DNA of 64,000 bases from contig BCHS01000009.1 in assembly GCA_039545275.1 (NCBI GenBank), forward strand, positions 434,001 through 498,000, in the 5' to 3' direction. The notes beneath the pieces were generated by a model. That model made no database searches and was not told the DNA's origin. It saw only the letters and a list, made by a program, of their open reading frames with translations. This document shows, piece after piece, positions 5,429 through 21,942 of the stretch (the stretch's first letter is position 1; the number at the start of each line of letters is the position of its first letter). This DNA is from Pseudomicrostroma phylloplanum. Taxonomy: Eukaryota > Basidiomycota > Exobasidiomycetes > Microstromatales. Both the position numbers and the translations under genes were made by a program.

Positions 5429-5804
5429 GATTAAGAGTCAAGAGCCTCACCACCAGCTAGCACCAACTCGTCACGCCCGTCCTGACCTCGTAGTCGCGTT
5501 TTAGTCCTCTCGTCCCTTGTTTCGTCCACACATTTCGCCACACTGTCCGACAGAGTACGGTGTACCCTCGGTCAGTGGACACAGATTTCCTTTCGCTGAA
5601 CAACTCCCAAAAACCCCTCACGGGGACCATTGTTTCGTTTAATTGCACCTGTTCTCCAGACACAGGGATCGACTGAGTACGCTGTACCCTCGACACCTGG
5701 AACCCCATTCGTTTTCCTGATCGTCTCATTGTAGCACTCTCCCAGATCTTACCTCAAGACCCTTACGATCCAACAAGTCGAACAAAACAAACACCTCGAT
5801 CATC
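5429..5804 (+). other. copia untranslated leader
   Basis: 376 bp between the 5' LTR and the gag ATG, with no ORF of note. It contains an 18-bp near-exact direct repeat (5553-5570 and 5675-5692, GAGTACGGTGTACCCTCG with one mismatch). The primer-binding and packaging signals should lie here. Confidence 0.7.
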
Positions 5805-7199
5805 ATGTTCAACCCTTCGATGTTCAATCCAACGGGTACGACCAACACTACTGGCACCCAAGGCCCCTTCAACATGATGAATATGGCCAACATGATGAAC
5901 ATGGCGAACATGATCAATCCCGAGGTCCAGGAACGAACTCCCCCCTGGACTGAAGCTGAGAAGCAGTTCTTGGAGACGATCCCTATTGGTGCGGCCGCTG
6001 GCAACACGAATGATTACCACAATCTCACGCGAAATGCCCATAGTGTCATCAAGCTAGATGGCAACAACTTCACCTTCTGGGACCGCAATTTGCGAAGCTC
6101 CTGCTCATTCGTACTCTTCCAGCGAGCCATTGGACTCCTTGACGGCACCGTAGCTGGCTCAGTCGACGCATACAAGCGCCTCTACGGCACTCCAGCCTCA
6201 GGTGACAAACCTGGAAAGCTTGCTGAAGAGTCGACCGCTATCCTAGCTCGAAACACTGAAGACGCACAACTTGGAAACTACATCTTGATGATCATCCACC
6301 CTAGCCTCCAAGCCACCGTGGTTGATGTTGGCGAGCAGCTACTCGGTTCATTGATGTACCGAAAGTTCAAGAGGACCTTCATTCCAAACAGGTTCGCTGC
6401 AGAGATCCTCATCAAGAATCAACTTGCTAACCTTCAGGTTGACGTCAACAAGCCTTTTGCCACTGTCGTTGACAAGTTGAAGTTGATCTTCGAAGAAAGA
6501 GCAACCAGGACTGGAACACCATTCGATGAGAACAACAAGATCAGTGAACTCCTTGGTCTGGCTAAGAGATCACCGATTCTCCAGGCTCAGACAATGAACA
6601 TCGAGTCAAACATCATGGGACTAGTCCAGGCACCTAACTTCGAAGCAATTTGTCTCCAGCTCATCAACATCGACCAGATGTACCGCACCAGGGTCACCAA
6701 CGAGTACTTCAGGAGCATGGGCATGGGACAGCCACAGATGCAGCCTCAATTGCAACCTCAGCTCCAACAGCAATACCAGCCACAGCCTCAGATCGAACTC
6801 TTCGGTCACCTCTCTCAGCAAAGCATGCCACAGCAGAACGTCCCTCAGCAGGATATCATGCGAATCATGCCACGACCAACGGGGGACATTGCCCAAGTCA
6901 ACAACCCTAATGCTCTCCTCGCACCTTCCGACATGAATCCTCTCACTCAGGTAGAACTCGCAGCAGCAGCAGCAACTCACAGAGGAGCATGCCTACACTG
7001 TGGACAGCAGGGTCACCTCATCAAGGACTGCAAGTTCCGAGAGGCAGGATTCCGTGAGCGAGAACGATGGCGCAAGGAACTCGAGAGCAAGGAGAAGAAA
7101 GCTCAAGAGTCTCAAGCGAGCTATGTTGGCAATTGGGGACTCTACAACCCCACCGGTGCTACCAGCTCTGACTCTGCTCCTGTATTCTTCCAGAGTTAG
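5805..7199 (+). CDS. gag: copia Gag (464 aa)
   Basis: Capsid/nucleocapsid protein of the copia element. The N-terminus is Met/Asn-rich with repeated NMMNMAN-like units. The core carries the UBN2/copia Gag signature region (KLDGNNFTFWDRNLRSS) near residues 80-100. A Gln/Pro-rich linker follows. A canonical CX2CX4HX4C zinc knuckle (CLHCGQQGHLIKDC) lies at about residues 398-411. The frame ends at TAG 7197-7199. The same frame is immediately open again and runs into protease, so the stop sits exactly at the Gag/Pol boundary and may be read through. Confidence 0.93.
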   Translation: MFNPSMFNPTGTTNTTGTQGPFNMMNMANMMNMANMINPEVQERTPPWTEAEKQFLETIPIGAAAGNTNDYHNLTRNAHSVIKLDGNNFTFWDRNLRSSCSFVLFQRAIGLLDGTVAGSVDAYKRLYGTPASGDKPGKLAEESTAILARNTEDAQLGNYILMIIHPSLQATVVDVGEQLLGSLMYRKFKRTFIPNRFAAEILIKNQLANLQVDVNKPFATVVDKLKLIFEERATRTGTPFDENNKISELLGLAKRSPILQAQTMNIESNIMGLVQAPNFEAICLQLINIDQMYRTRVTNEYFRSMGMGQPQMQPQLQPQLQQQYQPQPQIELFGHLSQQSMPQQNVPQQDIMRIMPRPTGDIAQVNNPNALLAPSDMNPLTQVELAAAAATHRGACLHCGQQGHLIKDCKFREAGFRERERWRKELESKEKKAQESQASYVGNWGLYNPTGATSSDSAPVFFQS

Positions 7200-8900
7200 G
7201 AATTTGGTGTCGTAGCAGAAGAATCTCGATCGGGGCTACCATATACACTTGTAAACTGCTATGACACCGAGATTACCCCGACGAGATCAACAGGTGGAGA
7301 GTGGATTCTAGACTCCGGCGCAACAACACACTCAACATGTTTCCCAATCGACAAGTTCATTCGCTACGAAGAAAGAGTAGACGGAGATGGACTTCCCATC
7401 GGCTGCCGAGTGGCCTCGGGAGACATCATTCCAGTCAAAGGCGTAGGCGACATTCTTTTCTCTTCTCTTGACAAGTACCTACTCCTTACACACATCTTGC
7501 ACATCCCCGGATTCAAAGTCAACCTAATCTCAGTACGTCAACTTGCAATGATGGGCTTGCGCTCAGAATTCGATCACGAGAAGGGACTCGTCACCAATGT
7601 ATCACAAGCTTTCGTAGCTGTTGCGAGGTTCTCCAAGGGAGCCTACGTCCTGGCGATCAAACCCGAACTGCCATCATCATCTGTAGCACAGCAATTCATC
7701 ATCAGGCACTACCGACGGCCCACAACCAATCTTCCTATCAGCCTTTCATTCACGAATCTGGAAGTTGAAGCTATGCGCTGGCATCAACGCCTGGGACACA
7801 TCGGCCGCACGTCACTCAAGAAAGTCGCTGAGTCGACTCGAGGTATTCCCCTCAACGTGACCAAGGCATCCCAACTACCATTCTGCGACGTCTGTGCTAC
7901 CACCAAGCAGTCTCGTGATGCTTTCAAGGAAAACCTCCACTCTGCAACACACCCTCTAGACCTTGTCCACGTCGACATTGCAGGCCCTTACCCAGATGGC
8001 ATTGGAGGCTACCGCTACTTCATGGTCTTCCTTGATGACTACACTCGAAGAATCTGGGTTTTCTTCCTCACATCAAGGATGAATGCTGAGATCATGCGTA
8101 CAATCCAGTCTTTCCTAGCTAGTGCTCAGGCCGAGACAGAGCGAAAGGTCAGGGTGTTCCGATCAGACAATGAGTTGAACCAACCAAGAATCATCGAGTT
8201 CTGCGAGCAGAATGGCATCACCCAGCGATTCACGTGCCCACACACTCCACAGCAAAACAGCCGCGCAGAGCGCATTATCAAAGACATCAAGGAGAACAGT
8301 AGGGCAATGCTCGAGGCCTCACGACTACCCGTCAATTTCTGGGTCTATGCTGTCAGCCATGCAGTCTGGATCAAGAATAGGATTGGACACGCTTCACTCA
8401 ACAACGTCTCACCTTGGGAGAAGTGGACTGGCACCGTACCATCACTGACAAAGCTCCGCATCTTCGGCTGTGTTGCATTCGCAATGCTACAGAAAGGACA
8501 GCGAGACCCAGGCCCACTGGCACACAGGGCAGTGCCTGGTGTCCACCTCGGTTTTGCCCCTCAGGCTGATGGTTACCTCATCTGGTTCCCCACCCTCGGC
8601 ACCGCTAGGACCTGTCGCGAAGTCAAGTTCAACGAGGATGCACACTGGCACAGTGTCGAAGCAGAAGGTTCTAGAATGGACGCAATGAATGAACTCTCAA
8701 GGGCAATGAACCTACCGATCATTGACTACGAAGAAGTCCGTCATCCTACGTTCAATCAGTCTGACCGACGTACGAACCTGACCCCACTACCTTCGCGACC
8801 GCCAACACCTCAATCTGAGCCTACACAATCAGAGCAGTCCTCACACCACGAGCAGGGTATGAGTCCTAACCAAGAGCACCCACGTGGTGACTCACCGTTC
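7200..8900 (+). pseudogene. pol: copia Pol, 5' segment: protease and integrase
   Basis: Same frame as gag, continuing directly after the TAG at 7197. Visible in order: aspartic protease motif WILDSGATTH near residue 38 of this segment; the GAG-pre-integrase and zinc region (RWHQRLGHIGRTSLKK, then CDVCATTKQS); and the integrase core with D in HVDIAGP, D in FRSDNE and E in RAERIIKDIK. The spacing between the last two is about 33 residues because the usual DNGGEF is DNELNQ here. The segment stops where element A inserted (TSD 8896-8900). Read-through into A's LTR adds foreign residues and soon stops. The coding was intact before the insertions, so it is broken only by them and perhaps by the TAG. 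Confidence 0.92.
8896..8900. repeat. target-site duplication (left) of element A, CGTTC
   Basis: CGTTC before the LTR at 8901 is repeated at 15296-15300 after the other LTR. It fixes the insertion point in the copia pol linker between integrase and reverse transcriptase. Confidence 0.93.
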
Positions 8901-9014
8901 TGTGCGAAAGGTAGTAATCGATTGTATGAGGAAAGGGTAGGAAGTCTCGTACAAGGCGTGCGATGGTGAAAAAGCCACAAGGGGGATCGGAACGGAAGGG
9001 AGCCAGCGAGCACA
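8901..9014 (-). repeat. element A LTR, 3' LTR of the minus-strand element (114 bp)
   Basis: On the plus strand it starts TGTGCGAAAGG and ends GCGAGCACA. It is identical by eye to 15182-15295. This is very short for an autonomous Ty3/gypsy element. Confidence 0.95.
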
Positions 9015-9144
9015 TCCCCCCCCTCAGTCTTTCTCGACTAGAGGGACCATAGGGATGAGAGCGAGAAGGAGGAAGGAAAGGAAGAGTGGCCAGTACGGTA
9101 GGTGGCGACGCGTCGGTGCGACGAGCGCGTCGCGGAGGCGTCGA
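9015..9144 (-). other. element A 3' untranslated region with polypurine tract
   Basis: 130 bp between the pol stop and the 3' LTR. The plus-strand C run at 9016-9024 reads as a G run on the element's coding strand, next to the LTR. That is the expected position of the polypurine tract that primes second-strand synthesis. Confidence 0.7.
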
Positions 9145-12100
9145 TCACGTGGCCGAGTCAGGTTCGGCGGCGACGGTGGAGAACTTGAGTCGGGAGAGCG
9201 AGTCGACGTTTGTGTGCGTCTTACCCGGTCGGTGGTGAAAAGTGAGAAGGTGTGCAAAGGGTGACAAGCTGTGTCGGACCCTCGTGAGCGTGTTGGATAC
9301 GACCTTCTGGCCCGAGCCATGGATGATAGGTCCGAGCGGGGAATGGTCTGTTACCACATGCACATGGCAGCCTTCGAACAGAGGAAGCAACTTGAGATAA
9401 GCCCACTTCAGGGCGGAGGCTTCGAGCTCGACAGCTGCAAGTCGCTGCTCGGTGACGGAGGTCTCGCGGGAGGTGAAGGCGACGGGCTTCTCTACAACCA
9501 GATGAGGAGTACCCTTGACGTTGCGAATCTGTGGTCGCTTGATTGGCGACGAGGGCGAGTCGTTGGCCTCCTTAGCTGATGGAAAGTGAGGCTGAAGCGA
9601 AGGAGGTCGAGGGGTCTCAACATCGAGCGCGGACAGGTTGTAGACTTGTGCCTCGACGTCGAGCAAGGACAGGTTGTAGACTTGGGCAGCCCAATCGATA
9701 GCGGGGGGAGTAGTCTGAGATTCCTGCCAGTTGGCGATGACATCCTGGCAACCATAGTCGAGCAAGTCGTCCTCAAACTCCCAGGTGTGTCGGGAGCTGC
9801 CTCGCCACTTCACGTAGTACTGGCGATGATCATTCCTCTGTCGCTCCTCCACAATGCGCTGAGGCTCATAGTAAGTGTCAGCGTCTTCTGGCACTAGACC
9901 TGGTCGTCCAAAAGGGTCGTCCTCTGCTCGTGGAATGGGTTGGAGTTGAGTCACATCGAAAGGTTGCTTGACGGACATGTCGGGGGGAAGCTCCAGCTCT
10001 GCACGATGGTCCGAGATCATGCGCTTGATCTTGAAGGGGCCCTCGAGGTCGGCATCCAGCTTTGAGCGCACCTGGCGGCCGGCCTGGAGTGGTCTGTCAT
10101 TCAACCTGACCATAACTAGGTCGCCTTCCTTGAGCTCGGGCAAAGGACGGCGTCGCTTGTCGTATCGACGCTTCTGCTTCTGTTGGGCTGCTCGTACGGC
10201 ATCCACAGCCTTCTTGAGGCGGCTTTGCGAGAAGCCTGAGCGGTCGTTGATGGAAGCGACGCCAGAATGCTCGAGAAGGGTCGAAAGTAGCGAAGGTCGC
10301 ATCACGTAGATGAGGTCGAAAGGTGCGCACCCAGTGACGGTGCTGGGAGTTGAATTCAGGGCGAGCTCAAGTGCGGGGAGTTTGTCATGCCACTTGGTGG
10401 GGTCGTCATCGTTGATAATGGTCTTTAGAGTGGTCTTGGCAGTCTGGACGTATCGCTCGACTGGATTGGCCGCCTGATGATACGGAGCCGAAGGGGTCAG
10501 GCGGGCGTTCAACCTTCCTGCGATCTCTGAGGCGATCTCTCCGGTGAACCTAAGGTCGTTGTCAGAGATGATGCGACTAGGTTTCCAACCTCTTCGAAGG
10601 ACCAGATTCTCGAAGGCCACAGCAATGTCCTTGGCGGTGGCTTGAGAGGTCATTGGGTGCAAGAGAACCAGCTTGGAGAAGACATCGACTATGATAAGGC
10701 ACGCGTTCAGAGGGCCTGGCATCCCCAGCATCAAATCCAGCGAGATTGTGTGGAAGGGGAGACCCAGGAAGTCATCCTCAATGTCTAGCCGACCGGTCTT
10801 GTTGTTGAGCTTGAACCTCAAACAAGTGGGGCAGTGCTTGACGTAGGCCCGGACCTTGTCTGGTAGAGAGGGGTGATACCAGTGCTGCTCAACTCCAGCC
10901 ATCGTGCGATTGTATCCTGGATGACCAGCGTGTGCTTCTTCAAAGACAAGCGAATCGAGGGTCTTAGGAAGACAGATGGTGTCGTTGTCGACGCGGACCA
11001 GGACTTCTTGGACCAGAGCGTAGCCAATGGTGGGGTCGTCGGCGAAGGTATCTATGATCCTCTTCCAGAGTGCATCGTCACGCTGAGCAGCGGCGATGTC
11101 AGGTGCCTTTGGGAAAGGGTCAGGAAGATCGACCGAAACGGTAGCCACGACCTTGTCGCCCTCAATGTCTTCGGGACGCATGGGGCGTGCAAACTGCTGG
11201 TGAAGGGCCGCAGCGTAAGCATACTTGGAGGCATCGATGTAGAGGATCCATTCCTTGTCTCGGTCGGGATAAGCGAGTGTTACCTGACGCGACAGGGCGC
11301 TCTTGAGTCCTTCAAAGGCTTCGAGATCTTTGCTGTCTAGAGTGATCGGTACAGACTTGGCATTGCGATGTTCAACTCCGTCGATGCTCAACTGGTTCCT
11401 ATCAGTGCTCGTCTTCGTGTACTTGGTGCCTTTAGTCTTGGCGACCAGCCTCGATGCTAGCTCGGCAAAGCGAGGGATAAATGGGCGGTAGTAGTTGAAG
11501 AGCCCGAGTACATGGTAGACTTCCTGAAGGTTGGTCGGGGGGGAGAGATTCCTGACAGCAGCCGCTCGGTCTGGGATGATAGATACGCCATCGACGGTGA
11601 TCAATCTGCCCAAGAGGTTGAGGCTCGCAACGGCAAAGAAGCACTTCTTTGGTGACAGCCGTAGACCAAATCGATGGCAGCGTTCCAGAAAGGCGCTCAG
11701 ATGGCGAGCGTGCTCTTCTTGGCTTCCAGAGAAGATGACAACATCGTCGAGGTAGACCATGGCGCTCTGCCAGCGAAGGGAGCCTAGGAGCGTGTCCATG
11801 AAGCGCTGGAAGTGAGCAGGAGCGTTCTTGAGCCCAAAGGGTATCCTTTTGAACTGGAAGAGGCCGCGGTGCGAGACGAAAGCGGTCTTGTACCTGTCTT
11901 GCTCTGCGACATCGAGCTGGAAATAGCCACTGATAGCATCTACCGACGAGAACACGCGCCCATGTGAGAGAGCCTCAAAGACGTCGTCCGTCCTGGGCAA
12001 CGGGTATCTATCCTCAACGGTGAGTAGGTTGAGGCCGCGGTAATCTACGCACATTCGCCATTTTGGTCCTTGCCTGACCAGGAGGACGGGGTAGGAGGTG

Positions 12101-13449
12101 CAAGATGAGCTGGCCTCAATGATGTCATTCTCGAGAAGTTGGTCGATGGTCTTGTCTATAATGTCTCGCTTTTGAGGACTGGTGCGACGAGGGGGCTCAG
12201 CTTGTAGGACGGCGCCTTCTTTCAGTTTGATCTGCATGGGAAAGTCCTTGACATGACCAGGCTTGTTGTCGGTGGCGAAGACCGTCTTGAACTTGCGGAG
12301 GGCAGCCAGGATGTCATCGGTAACTGCTGAGCCGACATTGAACGTCTCATCGACGAGGGTGGTAGCTTCAGCTGCGAGCTGTTCTCGCTGGACGCTGTCC
12401 TCATGGCTCTCGCCCTGGTCGAAGGTGATAGGCTCACTCGAGTCAGCCTGTTTGAGCAAGTCCAGGTCGACTTCCTTGGGGCCCTGAGGAGCCGTGTCGA
12501 GGGCGAAGGAGTGTTCCAAGGGGATGAAGTCCTGAGACAGAACTCGGGCCTGACACAGGGTGGCGTTGGACGGAAGAACTGCGTCTGCGTTCCCAAAGTT
12601 GGTGACGAGTACCTTGCACCAGGCCGGGGGTAGCACCGATCCTTGGATGAGCAAGGAGATGTCCTGTTGTGGCTCGTGCCAGGCTGCAGGGGAGACAGTG
12701 AGATTGCAGGTCGACGGGACTGAACGGCTGGGGCGGAAAGGTACCCAAGAGTGGTGGCGCGGTGGAATGACGGTGTCCTGCTGAACGATCAAGTCGATGG
12801 TACCTGGCTTGTCCTTTGAGTCTACTGTCCAGGTTTGCTCGGCGTTACTCTTGGTGTGCACCATAGGCCAGATCTTCCAGGTGAAGTCTCCTTTCTTGGC
12901 GATGCGTTTGTCGCCGTAGATGTGTATGCCATGAGGAATGATGAAGTCCGTACCCAAGATGATTCCGGGAGCAAGCTTCTTCATGCAGTGGAATTCGTGT
13001 GTGAAGTGGAGGTCTACCCACTCTTGGCCCCTGCGAGCGGTGATGGTGAACTCAACAACGACATGGCCGGTAGTCTGGCTGGTACCTATGCCACTCAAAG
13101 GAGTGACAGTCGTAGAGCCTTTGCACAGATCGGCCACGAGAGATTCGTCAATGAGAGACATTCCAGCACCTGTATCGAGAAGGCATGTAGATGAAAGTGA
13201 CGAGTGCAGGAGCTTGATTTGCATAACGGAAGGGCGATATTTCTTGTGCCATGAGCCAGGGGCGGTAGATGTTGAGGAGGGAAGATCGAACTTGATGATG
13301 GGCCGATCTGGCTTGATTAGGGAAGAGGGATCGTCGTCTAAGTTGGGAAGTGAGGTTTCAGCCAAAGGGGATTCTGCCAGATACGCTTCAGGTGACTTGT
13401 CCGTAGAGCACTTCTTGCTTAGTTTCTCGACGTTGCGGTCGTCTAGTTT
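9145..13449 (-). CDS. pol: element A Pol: PR-RT-RNH(N)-IN-CHD-RNH(C)
   Basis: About 1,430 residues in the -1 frame relative to gag, with no need for its own ATG. Residue numbers below count from 13365. Protease LLDTGAG is near 62-68. RT has VDYRGLN, FGLKNAPAHFQRF and YLDD near 536. LYIDASKYAYAAALHQQ near 705-720 is the first RNase H strand with catalytic Asp 1. The integrase zinc region (H...H...CPTC) is at 815-855. The integrase core has D in SLDLMLG (about 879), D in IISDNDLRF (about 937) and E in NPVERYVQ (about 970). A chromodomain with YYVKWRGSSRHTWEFEDD lies near 1182-1200. Finally PVAFTSRETS, AAVELEASALKWA, VVTDHSPLG and THTNVDSLSRL (1290-1395) supply the remaining RNase H with acidic residues 2-4. 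Order and motifs are read directly; function of the split domain is inference. A 36-bp tandem duplication lies just after the chromodomain. Confidence 0.93.
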   Translation of the reverse strand, partial: KLDDRNVEKLSKKCSTDKSPEAYLAESPLAETSLPNLDDDPSSLIKPDRPIIKFDLPSSTSTAPGSWHKKYRPSVMQIKLLHSSLSSTCLLDTGAGMSLIDESLVADLCKGSTTVTPLSGIGTSQTTGHVVVEFTITARRGQEWVDLHFTHEFHCMKKLAPGIILGTDFIIPHGIHIYGDKRIAKKGDFTWKIWPMVHTKSNAEQTWTVDSKDKPGTIDLIVQQDTVIPPRHHSWVPFRPSRSVPSTCNLTVSPAAWHEPQQDISLLIQGSVLPPAWCKVLVTNFGNADAVLPSNATLCQARVLSQDFIPLEHSFALDTAPQGPKEVDLDLLKQADSSEPITFDQGESHEDSVQREQLAAEATTLVDETFNVGSAVTDDILAALRKFKTVFATDNKPGHVKDFPMQIKLKEGAVLQAEPPRRTSPQKRDIIDKTIDQLLENDIIEASSSCTSYPVLLVRQGPKWRMCVDYRGLNLLTVEDRYPLPRTDDVFEALSHGRVFSSVDAISGYFQLDVAEQDRYKTAFVSHRGLFQFKRIPFGLKNAPAHFQRFMDTLLGSLRWQSAMVYLDDVVIFSGSQEEHARHLSAFLERCHRFGLRLSPKKCFFAVASLNLLGRLITVDGVSIIPDRAAAVRNLSPPTNLQEVYHVLGLFNYYRPFIPRFAELASRLVAKTKGTKYTKTSTDRNQLSIDGVEHRNAKSVPITLDSKDLEAFEGLKSALSRQVTLAYPDRDKEWILYIDASKYAYAAALHQQFARPMRPEDIEGDKVVATVSVDLPDPFPKAPDIAAAQRDDALWKRIIDTFADDPTIGYALVQEVLVRVDNDTICLPKTLDSLVFEEAHAGHPGYNRTMAGVEQHWYHPSLPDKVRAYVKHCPTCLRFKLNNKTGRLDIEDDFLGLPFHTISLDLMLGMPGPLNACLIIVDVFSKLVLLHPMTSQATAKDIAVAFENLVLRRGWKPSRIISDNDLRFTGEIASEIAGRLNARLTPSAPYHQAANPVERYVQTAKTTLKTIINDDDPTKWHDKLPALELALNSTPSTVTGCAPFDLIYVMRPSLLSTLLEHSGVASINDRSGFSQSRLKKAVDAVRAAQQKQKRRYDKRRRPLPELKEGDLVMVRLNDRPLQAGRQVRSKLDADLEGPFKIKRMISDHRAELELPPDMSVKQPFDVTQLQPIPRAEDDPFGRPGLVPEDADTYYEPQRIVEERQRNDHRQYYVKWRGSSRHTWEFEDDLLDYGCQDVIANWQESQTTPPAIDWAAQVYNLSLLDVEAQVYNLSALDVETPRPPSLQPHFPSAKEANDSPSSPIKRPQIRNVKGTPHLVVEKPVAFTSRETSVTEQRLAAVELEASALKWAYLKLLPLFEGCHVHVVTDHSPLGPIIHGSGQKVVSNTLTRVRHSLSPFAHLLTFHHRPGKTHTNVDSLSRLKFSTVAAEPDSAT
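9616..9687 (-). repeat. 36-bp tandem duplication inside element A pol
   Basis: Two adjacent 36-bp units, 9616-9651 and 9652-9687, each encode AQVYNLSxLDVE (x is L or A). They lie in the linker between the chromodomain and the distal RNase H part. Element B has no such duplication. Confidence 0.85.
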
Positions 13450-13452
13450 GAA
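13443..13452 (-). promoter_or_regulatory. element A gag/pol junction, weak -1 frameshift site
   Basis: On the coding strand the bases just before the gag stop are TTCAAAC and then TAG. Pol is open in the -1 frame through this point. The A-site half (AAAC) matches a -1 slippery heptamer, but the P-site half (TTC) does not follow X XXY YYZ. It aligns with GGGAAAC-TAG in element B, so slippage may be less efficient here. Confidence 0.5.
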
Positions 13453-15080
13453 GGAGAGTCAAGTCGAATGGCAGTGGCTGGGCTGGAACCGGAGGCAGAA
13501 GAGGTGCCTGAGACCGTCGAGGAGGTGCTCGAAGGTGACAGGCTAGCCGTTCTGTCGGAGGAGCTGGATGAGGAGCCCGAGGGCGATGCAGACTCGACTA
13601 CAGGGTAGCCAGCGAATTCGTCGACGGTTGTGGCCAAGTATGCCTCCTTCTTGACGGTGTTCACGTAGTCGTGAGCGAAGTCGAAATGAGCACCGTTGCA
13701 GAGACCGCAGGGACGATCGCGTTTGATGAGCTGATTGTTGTCAGGACGAAGGTAGTACTCCACACCTCCTTTAACAGAGAGATTCTCCGGCTTGTATGAT
13801 CGGCGAAGCGATTCCTTGGCGCCTCGCGCGGTGGGCTGAGGCTTGGCAGCCGTCTCTTCTTCGACTTTGACCGTTGCAGAGACGGTGGCGACTTCAGTGT
13901 CCTTCTTCTCCTCTACAAGCTTTCGTGCGGCACCGCCGTCTCGACGCCAGGGGCCTTCGATGTATTGTAATTCCTTTAGCAATTCATCGGTGGAAGATCG
14001 AGCTTGAGGGCGGAGATGGAGCTGTACGCTGTCAGGTAGTCCGAGAATGATATCACCGATGAAATCTTCAGGGTCTCGACCAGGGTAAGCGGAAGTGAGT
14101 AGACGAAGCTTTGCGAAGAAGTAGGCGAGCATGGACTCTTTCTTCCATTCCCAGCGCCTCTTGTGAGCAACTTCTCGCTTGGCGCCGAGGTCGCCACCGA
14201 AAACAGCCTTGAGTTCGTTGGCCCAGCCGTCGAGGGTAGAGAGATGTGATAGCTTCCAGGCTGTGTCTTTGGTCTCGAGCCATTCGCTTGCGGCACCAGT
14301 GAGGCAGACGGGTAGCGCTTCAAGGAGTGGCTCCCTCCAGCTGGCATCGGTCTTGGATTCATAGAGCATCCTAACGCGGCTGAGGAAGAAGTCCAATCGT
14401 TGAGTGTCGCCGTCGAAGGTCATGATGTCCTTGGCTTGCCACTCGCGTCGTCGAGGCATCTGAGTACCGTGCATAGAGGGTGCAAATCCAGCTGAGACAG
14501 GCTCAGCAGCGAAGATGTCGGCCTGTGCCTCCGTGAAACCTTGGTCGATGTAAGCCTTTCGTCGTTCCGCTCTAGCTACGTCGCTATTCTGCCAGGTTAG
14601 CTCGGCTCGTCGTCGTCGGTCGGCTACAGCGTTGGCGTTGCCTTGGTGTGCAAGGAGATTCTCGATTTGTGCTTGGTGGCTGGCCAGTTGGGTGCTGAGC
14701 TCTACTCGGTGTCGAGCGTCGCGTCGCTCGATCTCAGCTCTATGAGCAGCATTCTGTTCCTCCAAAAGAGTGCGCATCTGAGAGAGGATGTCAGCGTTGT
14801 TGACTACAGCGGGGGCGGGGGCAGCAGGGTTTGGGTTGGGGTTCTCCATGATGAACTGTCGTTCCTCCCACTCGGGGTTAGGTCCTACGTATGCCGGTAT
14901 GACGTCGCCGAAAGGCTGTAGTACTAGCTGACGTTCGTGCCGAAGCCTTCGCCTGTTGGCTCGGATGACTTCTTCGGGGTCTATGGGGGTCCAGATGTTC
15001 GGTCTGACGAGGGGTTGTTGAGGTCTATTGTCGGGATGGGTACGATGTCTTCGGTTGACGTGATGGAAGTTGCGGTGCAT
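13443..15080 (-). CDS. gag: element A Gag (545 aa)
   Basis: Gag polyprotein of the chromovirus, starting at ATG 15080, 101 bp after the LTR. A helical, Arg-rich N-terminal region contains ARRHRVEL-type heptads. A retrotransposon Gag capsid region (MTFDGDTQRLDFFLSRVRML through RWEWKKESMLAYFFAKLRLL) spans about residues 220-340. A small zinc motif CGLCNGAHFDFAH near residue 465 is C-X2-C-X3-H-X4-H, not the usual CCHC knuckle. The tail is Ser-rich. The stop TAG at 13443-13445 lies inside the gag/pol junction sequence AAACTAGACGACCGCAA shared with element B. Confidence 0.92.
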   Translation of the reverse strand: MHRNFHHVNRRHRTHPDNRPQQPLVRPNIWTPIDPEEVIRANRRRLRHERQLVLQPFGDVIPAYVGPNPEWEERQFIMENPNPNPAAPAPAVVNNADILSQMRTLLEEQNAAHRAEIERRDARHRVELSTQLASHQAQIENLLAHQGNANAVADRRRRAELTWQNSDVARAERRKAYIDQGFTEAQADIFAAEPVSAGFAPSMHGTQMPRRREWQAKDIMTFDGDTQRLDFFLSRVRMLYESKTDASWREPLLEALPVCLTGAASEWLETKDTAWKLSHLSTLDGWANELKAVFGGDLGAKREVAHKRRWEWKKESMLAYFFAKLRLLTSAYPGRDPEDFIGDIILGLPDSVQLHLRPQARSSTDELLKELQYIEGPWRRDGGAARKLVEEKKDTEVATVSATVKVEEETAAKPQPTARGAKESLRRSYKPENLSVKGGVEYYLRPDNNQLIKRDRPCGLCNGAHFDFAHDYVNTVKKEAYLATTVDEFAGYPVVESASPSGSSSSSSDRTASLSPSSTSSTVSGTSSASGSSPATAIRLDSPSN

Positions 15081-15181
15081 TCAAAGGGAGAGCGTGGGGG
15101 GGTTCGAGAACTGACTCGCAGTGCTGCCAACGCTGAGATATCGTTGGAAGCTGATGAGGAAGCCAGTCAGGCTTGTCACCA

Positions 15182-15295
15182 TGTGCGAAAGGTAGTAATC
15201 GATTGTATGAGGAAAGGGTAGGAAGTCTCGTACAAGGCGTGCGATGGTGAAAAAGCCACAAGGGGGATCGGAACGGAAGGGAGCCAGCGAGCACA
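15182..15295 (-). repeat. element A LTR, 5' LTR of the minus-strand element (114 bp)
   Basis: Identical by eye to 8901-9014. Immediately beyond it (15181 downward on the minus strand) lies TGGTGACAAGCC, the inferred primer-binding site. Confidence 0.95.
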
Positions 15296-15300
15296 CGTTC
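15296..15300. repeat. target-site duplication (right) of element A, CGTTC
   Basis: Second copy of CGTTC, matching 8896-8900. The copia frame resumes at 15301. Confidence 0.93.
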
Positions 15301-15364: not shown

Positions 15365-15464
15365 TGTACACAAGTTAGCGTCAAGGAAGTATGGATCGCT
15401 CTCAAAGGCGATGGAAAACACGAGGCGGCGGAAGTAGGAGCCAGGGAGACGGAACGGAAGCACA
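15365..15464 (-). repeat. element B LTR, 3' LTR of the minus-strand element (100 bp)
   Basis: On the plus strand it starts TGTACACAAG and ends GGAAGCACA. It matches 21838-21937 except for one G/A difference (GGCGATGG here). The GGAACGGAAG stretch is also found in element A's LTR. Confidence 0.94.
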
Positions 15465-15611
15465 TCCCCCCCCCCCAAAGAGAGCCGAAGAGTAACAGAG
15501 GCGAAGAGAGGAGGAGGAAGGAGGAGAGCGAAGAGGGTGTCGACGGGTACACGACTGTTTTTGGTGAGCCGATTCGCTCGTCGATTTTACCACGGAGCGG
15601 AAAGAGGGGGC
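15465..15611 (-). other. element B 3' untranslated region with poly-G polypurine tract
   Basis: The plus strand next to the LTR is a run of 12 C, a G run on the element's coding strand, at the polypurine-tract position. Nothing else is evident before the pol stop at 15612. Confidence 0.7.
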
Positions 15612-18600
15612 CTAAGCCTCTGAGCCCAGCTCGGAGGTGCGTTGCGAGTCGGAAACCGAGTCGGAGTCGAGGACGGGAAGAAGGCTCGGTGACGTGGGTG
15701 AGGGGAAGACTCGATCGCTGTCTGGTGCGATCGCTTCCTTCGAATGTCGTGTGAGAGTGGTTGCTCCGGCAGTTTGCTCGATGGGCAGTCGAGAGAGAGC
15801 ATCGACGTTGACATGTGAGGTGCCCGGTCGATGATGGAACGTGAGGAGATGAGCGAATGGTGAGAGGCGTTCTCGAGCCCTGATGAGAGTGGGCGAGTGC
15901 ACGTTCTGCCCATTGCCCTTGATGATGGGCCCAAGAGGGGCGTGGTCGGTGACAATGTGGACCTGACATCCTCCAAAGAAGGGGACGAATTTGAGGTAGG
16001 CCCAGACGAGAGCGCTAGCTTCTAGCTCTACAGCGGCGAGTTTCTTCTCGCCTGGTAGCGTCTCCCGAGAGGAGAAGGCCACTGGCCTCTCGGTGACCAA
16101 GCACTTGCGACCATCTACAGTGCGAATGCAAGGGCGACGCAGAGGACGTAGAGGGTCGTCGTTAGCGTCTTTAGCTGTAGCGAATTGGGGTGTGGCCTCC
16201 GTGTTGTACGCTTCTGGAAGAGGTGGTGTGGCGAGACCAGCGGCACGCTCGTGGTAGTCGTCGATCAGTTCTTGACAGCCATCCTCGATGAGGTCATCTT
16301 CGTACTCCCAAGTGTGTCTAGAGCTGTTCGTCCACTTCACGTAGTATCTCCGGTAGCCATTGCGGACGTCGTCTCTGACAATGCGCTGGGGTTCGTATCG
16401 TCGATCTTGTGAGTCTTCCACCAAGAGTCCCCCCCTCTCATAGGGATCTTCCTCAGCTGGCGGGACGGGTTGCAGGTGAGTCACGTCGAACGGTTGCTTA
16501 ATAGCCATGTCGCGAGGTAGGTCCAACTCGACGCGGTGATCTGATAGCACTTTCTTGACCTTGTAGGGACCCTCGAGGTCGGCATCCAGCTTTGTGCCTC
16601 CTTGTCTCCCTGCGTAGAGAGGCCGATCCTTCAGGCGGATCATTACTAGGTCTCCTTCTTTCAGCTTTGGTAGTGGGCGACGGCGTCTATCATACCGAGC
16701 CTTCTGTTTAGCCTTCGCTTTCTTGAGGGAGTCGACTGCCTTCTGAAGACGAGCCTTCGAGAAGTGGAAGCGGTCGTAGATGGAGCCGACGCCTGAGTGT
16801 TCCGTAAGGACGGAGAAGAGGCGAGGTCGGTAGACATTGATCAGGTCGAAAGGTGCAAAACCTGTGGTCTCATTCTCGGTGTCGTTCATGAGGAGCTCGA
16901 GTGCGAGCAGCTTGTCGGGCCAGCGCTCCGGTTCAGCGTCGAGGCAGAGGGTTTTGAGGGCGTTTTTAGCAGTCTGAATGTACCTCTCGACGGGGTTAGC
17001 TTGTTGGTGATAAGGTGCAGAAGGTGTAAGCTCCGCGCCCATGCGGGAAGCGATGGCCTGGGCTATCTCCCCTGTGAATCGCAGGTCACTGTCGGAGATG
17101 ATGCGGGAAGGGCGCCAGCCTCTGCGCAAGATGATGTTCTCGAACGCGAGGGCAATCTCTGTTGCTGTGGCGCGCGAGGTCATGGGGTGGAAGTTGACAA
17201 CTTTGGAGAAAACGTCGAGGATGACCAGACAAGCGTCTTTCTCCCCTGGCAGGCCTAGCATCAGGTCGAGAGACACTGTGTGGAATGGGAGACCTAGATA
17301 GTCTTCATCGATGTCCATCCGGCCTGCTCTTCCTCGCACTTTGGTCCTGAGGCAATGCGGACAGTACTTGACGTAGGTGCGAACCTTTTCGGGCATGGAG
17401 GGGTGGTAGAAGGTGTCGCAGATCCTGTTGTAGGTCCGACCGTAACTGCCGTGTCCATCGTGAGCTCGCTCCAGTGCCAAGTCCTCGAGACCTTTGGGTA
17501 GACAGACGGTGTCTGTGTCGACACGCATGAGGATGCCGTCCAAGAGCGTGTAGCCCGTCACATTCTCGCCGTTGGTGAGGGAGGTGATGGTCTTTCTCCA
17601 CAGGGGGTCCTCCTTTTGCTTCTCAGCGATGACGGATGCCGATGGGAAGGAAGAAGGTAAGTCCACCATGGAGGCTCCAACGACGACGAGTGAGGCGGTC
17701 TTGGCCTCGTTCAGAGTCAGTTCCCTCTCGAACTGTTGATGTAAGGCGGCCGCGTAGGCTTCCTTTGACGCGTCAACGTACAGAAACCAAGGCTTGTCGC
17801 GATTGGGATACGCCAGCGTGACCTGCTTGCAGAGCGCCTCTTTGAGCGCGTCGATCGATTTGATGTCTTCATCGTCGCACGTGACGACGACGGAGCGAGC
17901 ATTGCGGTAAGTTTGGTCGTCGACAATGAGCTCATGGCGCGTAGATCCCTTACGCTTCTGATACTTCGTGCCACGGGTCTTGGCAGTGAGCCGGGCAGCG
18001 AGGGAAGCGAAACGAGGGATAAAGGGTCTGTAATAGTTAAACAGCCCCAGTAGTCGGTAGACTTCTTGTAGCGTCTTTGGGGGAGCAAGAGCTTTGATGG
18101 CCTCGGCCCTGTCTGGGATGACAGAGACGCCATCGACAGTGATGAGTCGTCCTAGTAGATTTAGACTTGTGACGGCAAAGAAACACTTGGCCGGAGAGAG
18201 CTTCAAGCCAAAAGCTCTGCACTTGTGGAAGAATGAACGTAAGTGTTCGGCGTGCGACTGAGCGTTCTCAGAGAAGATGACGGCGTCATCCAAGTACACC
18301 ATTGCTGTCTTCCATCTCATTCCTCCAAGTAGAGAGTCCATAAACCGTTGGAAGTGAGAGGGAGCGTTCTTGAGCCCAAAAGGAATTCTGCGGTATTGAT
18401 AGAGGCCACGATGACTGACGAACGCGGTCTTCCATCTATCCTCTTCTGCGAGATCGAGTTGGAGGTAGCCGCTGACAGCGTCTACGGATGAGAATATTCG
18501 ACCTTGGGATAGGGTCTCAAACACATCCTCCATGCGTGGAAGTGGGTATTTGTCGTCGACTGTGAGGAGGTTCAAACCCCTGTAATCGACGCACATCCTC

Positions 18601-19997
18601 CACTTCGCTCCTTGTCTGACGAGGTGGATGGGGTACGAAGTGGGTGAGGAGCTGGGCTCGATGATGCCATTGGCTTCCAAAGAGTCGATGGTCTTGTCGA
18701 TGATGCTCCTCTTCTCCGGATCGACTCGACGAGGAGCCTCCGGCCGCAGTGTAGCTCCTTCCTTGAGTGGAATGCGCATGGGGAAAGAAGTGACGTGACC
18801 TGGTTTACCGTCCGTTGAGAAAACATCTTGGTAGTCTCGAAGAGCGGTGAGGATGCCGTCGTCAGCAGCGGATCCGACATTGAAGAGGCCATCGACACAA
18901 CGTGTTGCCTCGGCGATGAGTTTCTCCTTGTGGGCTTGATCATAGGCGTCCTCTTTCTCGTCGTAGGGGGTGGAACCTTCCACAACGTGCTCTGTGGCAT
19001 ACGCTGCCGGTTGAGGTGATGGCGAAGGCCTGGTGTGGAGGTTGAAAGTTTGGCCTAGATCAATGGTGGCATCGGAGAATGGGAAGGCCTGACAGAGAGG
19101 AAGGTTCGAGGGAACTTCCATATCTGAAGGGCTTGGATTTGAAACCAACACCTTCGACCAGCCGGGAGGGAGAATTGCTCCGGGAGTGAAGAGTAGCTGA
19201 TCGGTGTTTTCGACGCTCCAGACGGAGGGAGTGACGGAGATAGGGCCAGCGGGGAGCGTCCTGCTGGGTCTGATAGGGACCCAGGCGTGGTGGAAAGCAG
19301 GAACGACCGTCTTGCGTTTGCAGATCAGTGTGGTTTCGCCGAAGGTGGGCTGATCCTGAACAACCCAAGTGGTGACTCCGGTGTTAGCATCCACGATCTC
19401 GGTCAGTGGCCAGATTCTCCAGTAGAAAGATCCCAGTCTTGCTACGCGACAAAGACCATCGATGATGATGCCGTGGCCGAAGACAAAGTCCGATCCAAGA
19501 ATGATACCGGGTGCAAGACGAGGAACGACATGGAACTCATGAGTGAAGACGGCGGAAACCTTCTCTCGAGATTCGCCGTGGTTCTGATGGCCTGAGACGA
19601 CGAAGCTGAGCACGACGTGTCCTGAGGTTGATGACTCGCCGATGCCAACAAGGTCCAGATTAGAGCTGGGGTCTATCTCGAGGTGTTCTACTAGACTCTT
19701 GTCGATGAGAGAGAGACCTGCGCCAGTGTCCAGCAGACAAGAGCGTACTGTTCTCTCGTCGCGGAAACGGATGTTCATGGCTGTGGGTTTGTATCCTACG
19801 TGTTGGTTTCCTCTTCCGAGCTCCATGCCTCCTGCAGGAGGGAATTCGATGGTGCGGACTGGTTGAGCAGAGGCGACAACGTCATGCTCAAGAGGAGGAA
19901 GGTGGATCAGAGCTAGGGACGGATTGGCGAAGAAAGCTTTGGCTTTATCCGGAGGGCTCTTGACACGTAGTTTCGCGACATTGCGGTCGTCTAGTTT
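15612..19997 (-). CDS. pol: element B Pol: PR-RT-RNH(N)-IN-CHD-RNH(C)
   Basis: About 1,460 residues. Pol is open in the -1 frame from the slippery site at 19994-20000, through an in-frame ATG at 19826. Residues below count from 19826. Protease CLLDTGAGLSLID is near 30. RT YLDD is near 512. LYVDASKEAYAAALHQQF near 680-698 is the RNase H N-part with Asp 1. The integrase zinc region includes YVKYCPHCLRTK. Integrase core residues sit in SLDLMLGL, IISDSDLRF and NPVERYIQ. The chromodomain includes YYVKWTNSSRHTWEYEDD (about 1160-1195). The distal RNase H part is RPVAFSSRET, AAVELEASALVWA, IVTDHAPLG and HVNVDALSRL (about 1242-1344). A 60-residue Ser-rich tail follows. The order matches element A exactly, which is strong evidence that the rearrangement is functional or at least tolerated. 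Confidence 0.93.
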   Translation of the reverse strand, partial: KLDDRNVAKLRVKSPPDKAKAFFANPSLALIHLPPLEHDVVASAQPVRTIEFPPAGGMELGRGNQHVGYKPTAMNIRFRDERTVRSCLLDTGAGLSLIDKSLVEHLEIDPSSNLDLVGIGESSTSGHVVLSFVVSGHQNHGESREKVSAVFTHEFHVVPRLAPGIILGSDFVFGHGIIIDGLCRVARLGSFYWRIWPLTEIVDANTGVTTWVVQDQPTFGETTLICKRKTVVPAFHHAWVPIRPSRTLPAGPISVTPSVWSVENTDQLLFTPGAILPPGWSKVLVSNPSPSDMEVPSNLPLCQAFPFSDATIDLGQTFNLHTRPSPSPQPAAYATEHVVEGSTPYDEKEDAYDQAHKEKLIAEATRCVDGLFNVGSAADDGILTALRDYQDVFSTDGKPGHVTSFPMRIPLKEGATLRPEAPRRVDPEKRSIIDKTIDSLEANGIIEPSSSPTSYPIHLVRQGAKWRMCVDYRGLNLLTVDDKYPLPRMEDVFETLSQGRIFSSVDAVSGYLQLDLAEEDRWKTAFVSHRGLYQYRRIPFGLKNAPSHFQRFMDSLLGGMRWKTAMVYLDDAVIFSENAQSHAEHLRSFFHKCRAFGLKLSPAKCFFAVTSLNLLGRLITVDGVSVIPDRAEAIKALAPPKTLQEVYRLLGLFNYYRPFIPRFASLAARLTAKTRGTKYQKRKGSTRHELIVDDQTYRNARSVVVTCDDEDIKSIDALKEALCKQVTLAYPNRDKPWFLYVDASKEAYAAALHQQFERELTLNEAKTASLVVVGASMVDLPSSFPSASVIAEKQKEDPLWRKTITSLTNGENVTGYTLLDGILMRVDTDTVCLPKGLEDLALERAHDGHGSYGRTYNRICDTFYHPSMPEKVRTYVKYCPHCLRTKVRGRAGRMDIDEDYLGLPFHTVSLDLMLGLPGEKDACLVILDVFSKVVNFHPMTSRATATEIALAFENIILRRGWRPSRIISDSDLRFTGEIAQAIASRMGAELTPSAPYHQQANPVERYIQTAKNALKTLCLDAEPERWPDKLLALELLMNDTENETTGFAPFDLINVYRPRLFSVLTEHSGVGSIYDRFHFSKARLQKAVDSLKKAKAKQKARYDRRRRPLPKLKEGDLVMIRLKDRPLYAGRQGGTKLDADLEGPYKVKKVLSDHRVELDLPRDMAIKQPFDVTHLQPVPPAEEDPYERGGLLVEDSQDRRYEPQRIVRDDVRNGYRRYYVKWTNSSRHTWEYEDDLIEDGCQELIDDYHERAAGLATPPLPEAYNTEATPQFATAKDANDDPLRPLRRPCIRTVDGRKCLVTERPVAFSSRETLPGEKKLAAVELEASALVWAYLKFVPFFGGCQVHIVTDHAPLGPIIKGNGQNVHSPTLIRARERLSPFAHLLTFHHRPGTSHVNVDALSRLPIEQTAGATTLTRHSKEAIAPDSDRVFPSPTSPSLLPVLDSDSVSDSQRTSELGSEA

Positions 19998-20000
19998 CCC
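19991..20000 (-). promoter_or_regulatory. element B -1 ribosomal frameshift site GGGAAAC at the gag stop
   Basis: The coding strand reads G GGA AAC TAG in the gag frame. GGGAAAC fits the X XXY YYZ rule and is a known retroviral slippery heptamer. A -1 slip gives GGG AAA CTA GAC GAC and continues uninterrupted into Pol. The stop codon directly after the A-site codon is unusual, since most sites have a spacer and a downstream structure. Confidence 0.75.
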
Positions 20001-21712
20001 GAGTCGACGTCGATGGACGTCTGAGACGTGGAGCCAGGAAGCAGACCACTCGAGGGCAAAGATCGCGCCGCGTCAGGCGACGTTGGTGCTGATGAAACAG
20101 AGAGGATGTCGGGTGATGCTCCGGAAGAGGACATGGAGCCGCAAGATACGACTGGGTACCCTCCGTAGCGCTCCTGTGTGTCAAAGAACAGAGCCTCTTT
20201 CTTGACCCTGGAGAAGTGGTCGTGTGCGAAGTCAAAGTGGGGTTGTCCACAGGTGCCGCAATCGCGGTCTCGCCTAAGCACTTGACCATTGTCTGGACGA
20301 CGGTAGCACTCCTTGCCGTTGTCATAGAAGAGATTGTTCGGGTTGAAGGTCCTCTTGAGGGAGTCTCTCTGTTGTGGCTTCTGAGTGTTGGAGACTTGAA
20401 CCTGGGGTGCTTCTGCACCGCTGGACGTGATGAGAACGGACGAGGTGCTGTCGGTGGAGCTGTCGACTCTCAGGGTGCGGTTCCTACGATCGCAGCGCCT
20501 CCAGGGACCCTCCAGGTCTTGAAGACGTTTGAGGAGCTGTTGGACCGTACGGACAGATTGGCTCCTGACCGTAAGTTGGAAGTCATCGGGCAATCCCAAG
20601 ATGATATCTTCGATGAAATCATCCGCTGGTCGATCAGGATAAGCAGAGGTGAGAACTCTCTGCTTCGCGAAGAAGTACGTGAGGGTATCCTCTTTCTTGA
20701 ATTCCCACACTCGAGCATGGGCTACGTGGCGTTTAGACGCGTTGTCACCGCCGAAGAAGGCCCTGAGCTCCGTGGTCCAGCCCTCGATCGTGTTGAGCTT
20801 TCGCATCTTGTAGTCGAGGGGTTGGTTTTCAAGCCATTCGCTAGCAGATCCGGTTAGACAGATTGGTAGAGTCTCGAGGAGAGGCTCGCGCCAGTTTGGA
20901 TCAGGCTTCATCTCGTAGAGGAGTTGAATGCGACTGATAAAGCGCTCCAGAGTGAGGCCATTGCCATCGAAAGTGCCTATATGCTCGGGCTTCCAGTCGC
21001 GTCGACGATTGGGTTGAGTGATGAGCGTAGTAGGAGGACTTTCAGTGCTGCTAGGGAGAGGTTCGCGACAGTACAGGTCGGCTTGTTCTTCGGTGAAGCC
21101 AGAAGCAATGTAACTCTCCTTGAGTCGTTCGCGGACCACATTGTCTGTCTGCCAACGGATGATGGCTTGTCGTCGTCGATCAACTTGGTCTTCACGATTG
21201 TTGGGACGCTCTGCGAGGAGTCTCTCGATTTCAGCTTTGTGTGCGTCCATTTGAACTTGCATCTCGCGTTTGTGCTGTTCATCACGGCGTGCGACGATGC
21301 GATCGAAGTGGTCGATGAGCTGCTGGCTCATGGCGAGCTGAGCTTGTGCTGCTGAAATTCCCGAAGGAGAGGGTCGTTCGGTGTCGTCTCCGACGTCTGA
21401 GATGCGAGTTGAAGCCATTGTGCTTGCCTTCTTCTTCTTCTTCCTAGACTTGCGAAGGACAGCCTCTGGATCGTTGACTTGTGGAAACTCGGGGGCTTCG
21501 CGCCGCTGAGTCGAGACTGAGCCGGTGGTGCTGTGCTGAGCAGAGTTGTGAGAAGTCGTTGATGAGGAAGCGTCGCTGCGCTGAGCGGATGCTGAAGATG
21601 TTGTGACGGGGACGTTGTCGCTGCGTTGAGCGGGGACAGAGAGGTTTGTAGACAGAGGAACGTTGCTGAGCTGAGCAGGAGAGGAGGAGGTAGTGGGTAG
21701 ATCAGAGGGCAT
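19991..21712 (-). CDS. gag: element B Gag (573 aa)
   Basis: Starts at ATG 21712, 125 bp after the LTR. The N-terminus has Ser/Thr-rich repeats built on SAQRSD and PLSTN-like units. A basic stretch RKSRKKKKK, a helical region and the Gag capsid region (GTFDGNGLTLERFISRIQLL through EFKKEDTLTYFFAKQR) follow. A CGTCGQPHFDFAH motif near residue 490 has the same C-X2-C-X3-H-X4-H spacing as element A. It ends at TAG 19991-19993 directly behind the heptamer GGGAAAC. Confidence 0.92.
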   Translation of the reverse strand: MPSDLPTTSSSPAQLSNVPLSTNLSVPAQRSDNVPVTTSSASAQRSDASSSTTSHNSAQHSTTGSVSTQRREAPEFPQVNDPEAVLRKSRKKKKKASTMASTRISDVGDDTERPSPSGISAAQAQLAMSQQLIDHFDRIVARRDEQHKREMQVQMDAHKAEIERLLAERPNNREDQVDRRRQAIIRWQTDNVVRERLKESYIASGFTEEQADLYCREPLPSSTESPPTTLITQPNRRRDWKPEHIGTFDGNGLTLERFISRIQLLYEMKPDPNWREPLLETLPICLTGSASEWLENQPLDYKMRKLNTIEGWTTELRAFFGGDNASKRHVAHARVWEFKKEDTLTYFFAKQRVLTSAYPDRPADDFIEDIILGLPDDFQLTVRSQSVRTVQQLLKRLQDLEGPWRRCDRRNRTLRVDSSTDSTSSVLITSSGAEAPQVQVSNTQKPQQRDSLKRTFNPNNLFYDNGKECYRRPDNGQVLRRDRDCGTCGQPHFDFAHDHFSRVKKEALFFDTQERYGGYPVVSCGSMSSSGASPDILSVSSAPTSPDAARSLPSSGLLPGSTSQTSIDVDSGN

Positions 21713-21837
21713 AGGACGACGTCCAAGGGGTCCGGCGGGGGAAGAGCAGGGGTTCGAACACGTCTTGCGGTGCTGTGGGTGTTAAGCGTAGTGTTAACAA
21801 CCAGAGCTAGGAGAAAGACGTGCCCGTCTTGTCACCA

Positions 21838-21937
21838 TGTACACAAGTTAGCGTCAAGGAAGTATGGATCGCTCTCAAAGGCAATGGAAAACACGAGGCG
21901 GCGGAAGTAGGAGCCAGGGAGACGGAACGGAAGCACA
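21838..21937 (-). repeat. element B LTR, 5' LTR of the minus-strand element (100 bp)
   Basis: Matches 15365-15464 at 99 of 100 bases by eye. On the minus strand it is followed by TGGTGACAAGACGGG, the inferred primer-binding site. Confidence 0.94.
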
Positions 21938-21942
21938 CGCTC
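21938..21942. repeat. target-site duplication (right) of element B, CGCTC
   Basis: Second copy of CGCTC, matching 15360-15364. Copia pol resumes in frame at 21943. Confidence 0.93.

Follow-up and report, generated by a model that had tools for sequence, protein, structure and literature searches.

Ty3/gypsy-like retrotransposons of smut-related fungi in which RNase H is split around integrase and chromodomain

The Pol domain order of LTR retrotransposons serves in their classification, and each catalytic domain is commonly annotated as one block. Within a 64,000-nucleotide stretch of the Pseudomicrostroma phylloplanum genome (contig BCHS01000009.1, positions 434,001 to 498,000; hereafter the window, in whose coordinates all features are given), the Pol protein of one retrotransposon, element A, appears to break this pattern, with one catalytic domain opened around another. 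The locus thus raises the question of whether the RNase H of A is truly divided by integrase and chromodomain, whether that layout is inherited rather than accidental, and how an RNase H so arranged might work. If genuine, it would provide a natural split RNase H and a natural test of protease partitioning of RT and integrase.

The RNase H of element A lies in two complementary pieces

The pol of element A occupies the minus strand (9145..13458) as a single open frame, 1437 codons long, whose product is a 1436-aa protein (P0001) with the order protease, RT, proximal RNase H, integrase, SH3, chromodomain, and distal RNase H. The best Pfam stretches place RVT_1 at aa 465-616, RT_RNaseH_2 at aa 708-756 (profile 3-51 of 100), Integrase_H2C2 at aa 830-882, SH3_Tf2-1 at aa 1111-1173, Chromo at aa 1196-1245, and RT_RNaseH at aa 1322-1399 (profile 30-104 of 105); both RNase H models returned one extra stretch each for P0001, which is listed without a placement. 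The rve match (aa 918-993) scores 26.6 bits, below its cut-off of 32.6, and both the rve and the protease matches fall below the Pfam cut-offs in A and in the second element of the window, B; Chromo scores 28.9 bits in A and 26.0 bits in B, against a cut-off of 25.1. On the DNA, all on the minus strand, these domains correspond to the RT core (11485..12126), the proximal RNase H half (11185..11334), the integrase H2C2 zinc domain and catalytic core (10303..10968), the integrase C-terminal SH3 domain (9937..10125), the chromodomain (9721..9870), and the distal RNase H half plus lead-in (9184..9549, aa 1303-1424).

We also searched P0001 with an RNase H profile of 152 positions to which ordinary elements alone contributed (18 aligned stretches; 14 proteins picked after a motif scan). 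It matches aa 708-757 at positions 3-52 and aa 1321-1422 at positions 54-151, two complementary matches with zero overlap and a break at position 52/54. An earlier note on this DNA, made from the letters alone, had proposed that the RNase H of A is split round integrase and chromodomain, that its halves are complementary and permuted rather than duplicated, and that the distal part follows about 570 residues later; both Pfam and the ordinary profile bear this out, the distance being 564 residues (1321-757), and the best Pfam stretches are partial, as the note had anticipated. The proximal piece comprises the first RNase H hairpin with the first catalytic Asp (D741, 11233-11235), and the distal piece contributes Glu, Asp, and Asp (E1345, 9421-9423; D1370, 9346-9348; D1418, 9202-9204). 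All four D-E-D-D acids of an active RNase H are therefore present in A. No further RNase H was matched by profile search in the pol frames of A or B beside the two partial pieces; in particular, RT and integrase of A do not enclose a complete copy of the domain, the presence of which the note had named as fatal to its proposal.

Elements A and B are recent, complete insertions

Element A is a whole LTR retrotransposon of 6395 bp on the minus strand (8901..15295), flanked by a 5-bp target duplication, CGTTC (8896-8900 and 15296-15300). Its 114-bp LTRs (3' LTR, 8901..9014; 5' LTR, 15182..15295) are identical and of the form TG...CA. A polypurine tract, GAGGGGGGGGA, read directly, adjoins the 3' LTR (9015..9025), and a putative primer-binding stretch with a TGG start, TGGTGACAAG, lies directly behind the 5' LTR (15172..15181) and is common to A, B, and the C4 copy described below. 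The Gag-like frame (13443..15080) is assigned by position and has no Pfam match; from the coordinates, pol occupies the -1 frame relative to it. In A and B alike the Gag-like frame ends in ...AAC TAG within DNA common to both, AAACTAGACGACCGCAA (13440-13470 and 19985-20010), and the sequence directly ahead of the stop is GGGAAAC in B versus TTCAAAC in A, the former of which we take to resemble a -1 slippery heptamer.

Element B, the second retrotransposon with the split layout (minus strand, 15365..21937), has CGCTC on either flank and 100-bp LTRs that are 99% identical (15365-15464 and 21838-21937). Its Pol frame (15612..20072) encodes the 1485-aa protein P0002, 64% identical to the Pol of A across the aligned stretch, with a proximal RNase H half at 17721..17873 (D766 at 17772-17774) and a distal half at 15789..16151 (E1350, D1375, and D1423). 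Because the LTRs of each element are identical or 99% identical, and in view of the 5-bp target duplications and open frames, A and B are recent insertions, and elements with the split layout have been mobile in the recent past, although the movement of A and B may have had help in trans from another copy. Both insertions interrupt a plus-strand element of the Ty1/copia type (5721-8900 and 21852-24233), with its integrase to the left (7200-8900) and its RT (RVT_2) to the right (21852-24233), making a double nested insertion in which 59 bp plus two target duplications separate A from B. Within the window, no RNA family was matched at gathering threshold and no tRNA was found.

The split layout recurs within the genome and across related fungi

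In the genome to which the window belongs, RT_RNaseH matches occur in at least seven places, two of which begin at profile position 1 or 4 and five of which, including A and B, begin at position 29-30; three further frames besides A and B thus carry the split layout. A third copy, on contig C4, carries a 109-bp terminal repeat whose two ends, 6630 bp apart, differ by one mismatch, again in keeping with recent insertion, and TGGTGACAAG comes next. A direct-repeat search of 9-kb stretches around the C4b and C5b copies gave no LTR pair, and the split Pol frames in the stretches so searched (L007:3256-7998 and L008:3109-8115) have longer C-terminal tails. A lone relative of the A LTR (85%; G000:C4:1078614-1078727) lies less than 500 bp from a contig end and is possibly subtelomeric.

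Protein searches returned 570, 434, and 131 relatives, of which 120 each were examined among the matches listed. We classed 313 Pol-like proteins (308 relatives, P0001-P0308, plus the 5 genome frames) using a separate profile for each RNase H half, and found 147 split, 123 ordinary, none with both layouts, and 43 with a domain match missing; these counts do not represent population frequencies, since split members served as queries in two of the searches and an ordinary member in the other. The two layouts are far apart in the number of residues between the RNase H halves, which is 0-62 in the 123 ordinary elements (median 6; above 30 in 2/123) and 461-647 in the 147 split elements (median 532). 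Of the incomplete rows, 27 lack a distal match, 5 a proximal match, 5 integrase, and 3 both RT and the proximal half, with 3 others. Two of those lacking a proximal match, C4b and P0188, show one at a looser setting. In split rows the distal half, about 100 residues long, begins 179-372 residues past the integrase core; 26 of the 27 rows without a distal match have at most 233 residues after that core, not enough to accommodate it, and on the split side 25 of 26 end too early for it. P0107 (Tilletia indica, annotated as partial) falls on the split side and extends 385 residues past the integrase core without a distal RNase H match; it is either a genuine exception or a copy that has been broken.

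Two proteins, P0123 and P0128, were considered as carriers of overlapping or duplicate halves and rejected: their longer matches are poor alignments, extending into the integrase lead-in in P0123 and into the stretch ahead of the distal half in P0128, and with the half profiles each falls among the split proteins. The annotated protein P0003 (Jaminaea pallidilutea, 2176 aa) has two RT-proximal RNase H-integrase sets in series with a single distal half between them, and is probably two elements joined by the gene model.

Among the matches listed, split members with a named host come from Jaminaea, Parajaminaea, Tilletia, Pseudozyma, Ustilago, and Melanopsichium, and by their taxonomy four host species belong to three orders of Ustilaginomycotina (Microstromatales, Tilletiales, and Ustilaginales); the deeper split members (P0104 and relatives) are metagenome proteins. 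The arrangement has thus persisted through a clade spanning at least three orders. The same order, which the note had proposed to seek elsewhere, is accordingly present in B, in three more frames of the genome, and in 147/313 Pol-like proteins, and this recurrence in independent sequences answers its concern that the C-terminal part might be an assembly artefact. Nested repeats are difficult to assemble, a point in favour of an assembly error, frameshift, or chimera; we nevertheless regard this explanation as having next to no chance of being correct, given that the same break is shared by 147 proteins drawn from several databases and contigs, including relatives 33-57% identical to B, and that both A and B retain intact LTR pairs and target duplications.

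Might the pieces instead be leftovers of an RNase H that is dead or dispensable, with a host RNase H as substitute? Catalytic residues have been lost from the original RNase H of some elements that carry another one besides (in the available part of PMC5348765). In the split clade, by contrast, the catalytic acids are retained at 145/146 (Asp), 148/148 (Glu), 145/147 (Asp), and 139/139 (Asp) among 148 split rows, so that each is present in more than 98% of rows scored, including the first Asp, which stands alone ahead of integrase. In addition, A and B have no second RNase H, and the same partial source regards an element-encoded RNase H as obligatory for LTR elements, since their reverse transcription takes place in the cytoplasm. 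We consider a dead or dispensable RNase H quite improbable. In four comparisons among the five genome elements (three of the comparisons have elements in common), identity is 0.55-0.76 in the distal RNase H versus 0.30-0.44 in the flanking linkers. Amino-acid identity per segment was used alone here because most segments are saturated at synonymous sites, leaving dN/dS mostly not measurable.

The break probably arose once, at a hairpin

For phylogenetic analysis, the 237 proteins with sufficiently long RT and integrase were dereplicated to 76 rows (20 split, 56 ordinary). In the RT tree a single branch separates the 20 split rows from all others (bootstrap/SH-aLRT 100/99), and the same is true of the integrase tree, obtained by a quick search (SH-aLRT 99). 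As split rows form a single clade in both, the split layout probably arose once, judging from these sequences. The nearest ordinary row in the RT tree is P0231 (97/76), which in the integrase tree groups instead with the P0111 and P0112 groups; the P0111 and P0112 groups together with P0118 neighbour the split clade in both trees, and RT and integrase have therefore apparently travelled together.

Ordinary neighbours of the clade, including P0118, P0239, P0242, P0273, and P0112, have about 20-62 residues at the hairpin where the split elements are broken, which suggests that the hairpin is an insertion-tolerant site. The longest of these stretches, 62 residues from residue 716, belongs to P0118, whose domain order is ordinary. 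The distal RNase H segment would have moved behind the chromodomain, or would have come to lie there through duplication and reciprocal loss, the break being placed at a hairpin that tolerates insertions.

Comparison with known elements

The best PDB sequence match of A is Ty3 Gag-Pol (E 9.3e-78), and Ty3 is also its top fold match. Elements A and B share with Ty3/gypsy elements an RT ahead of integrase, a placement in the RT tree among Ty3/gypsy-type Pols, TG...CA LTRs (A), and 5-bp duplications, but lack the single RNase H block before integrase. Like the chromoviruses (Metaviridae with a chromodomain integrase), A has RT, H2C2 integrase, SH3, chromodomain, LTRs, and a polypurine tract, and both elements carry the chromodomain on the C-terminal side of integrase; unlike in chromoviruses, it does not form the C-terminal end of Pol, since the distal two thirds of RNase H follow it.

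Other departures from the usual Pol differ in kind. Gmr1-like Ty3/gypsy elements also have an altered Pol order (Goodwin and Poulter 2002, as reported in part of PMC3587641), but there integrase lies upstream of RT, which is not the case in A and B, and the portion concerned mentions no broken domain. Tat, Archon, and Chronos resemble A and B in an unusual RNase H make-up, and Chronos has a chromodomain too; according to the available part of PMC5348765 they added a second RNase H while the original lost catalytic residues, whereas A and B have one RNase H, divided, with its catalytic residues kept. A 2011 survey of fungal LTR elements in 8 basidiomycete genomes (PMC3248453) reports, in the part available, that domain order differs among families and that RNase H clusters as RT does, and that part does not mention a split RNase H. 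Searches of the open-licence PubMed Central literature gave no published description of the layout, consistent with the note's statement that it knew of no described family. Annotation that expects one block per domain could miss a split RNase H.

Predicted structure and proposed mechanism

Beyond the order, its clade-wide conservation, the retained catalytic acids, and the recent insertion of split elements, we propose, with a probability of roughly 0.8, that these elements form a Ty3/gypsy-like chromodomain clade in which integrase and chromodomain are nested in RNase H and the halves fold together in cis. AlphaFold models of A and P0104 (36% identical to each other) align to Ty3 RT (4ol8_A), the former covering 384/390 residues at 2.8 A and the latter 388/390 at 3.4 A. 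In both models the aligned ranges run from RT to the C-terminal piece, and the Ty3 RT-RNase H is thus matched using both pieces, the rejoining that the note had expected of structure prediction; the two are predicted to make up a single Ty3-like RNase H that is attached to RT. These alignment ranges are the basis on which contact between the halves is inferred; pTM is 0.50 in both models, and AlphaFold may be recalling the RT-RNase H fold.

Under this proposal, RNase H would fold from full-length Pol, with integrase-chromodomain as a large insertion in the beta2-beta3 hairpin and the halves meeting through two variable linkers. An enzyme joined in cis on full-length Pol would be competent only after synthesis of the complete Pol, integrase included. 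Integrase might then be carried on RT, or be cut out by protease to leave a nicked two-chain RNase H.

Alternatively, protease cleavage could place the RNase H pieces on separate chains that reassociate non-covalently, with integrase freed as in Ty3. Both linkers are variable (0.30-0.44 in the four comparisons above) and include stretches of low confidence in the model of A (model residues 380-390 and 861-916), and could contain cleavage sites; a fragment of about 150 aa would, however, have to remain bound throughout replication, and we hold this alternative to be possible but distinctly less probable than folding in cis. Much further down the scale is an alternative transcript from which integrase-chromodomain is removed by splicing, yielding an ordinary RT-RNase H protein. 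Introns occur in the host genes of fungi of this kind, and splicing would obtain both enzymes from a single locus, but a scan of 40 codons after the hairpin revealed no shared splice donor in any of the 5 genome elements; a consensus-like donor is present in one (C4b), and acceptors vary in place and phase. Splicing is accordingly very unlikely.

Returning to folding in cis, we tentatively raise a stronger form, in which RT, RNase H, and integrase are one obligate polypeptide whose integrase, inserted in RNase H, is never released. If so, RNase H activity would report a complete Pol, and integrase would ride on RT from reverse transcription to integration. The beta subunit of avian retroviral RT, in which RT is still joined to integrase, is a functional single chain of RT, RNase H, and integrase; there integrase comes after RNase H, whereas in A and B it is nested inside. 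The linker between chromodomain and distal RNase H in P0001 also contains a tandem repeat of 12 residues, near-exact and not seen in B (AQVYNLSLLDVE / AQVYNLSALDVE, aa 1257-1280).
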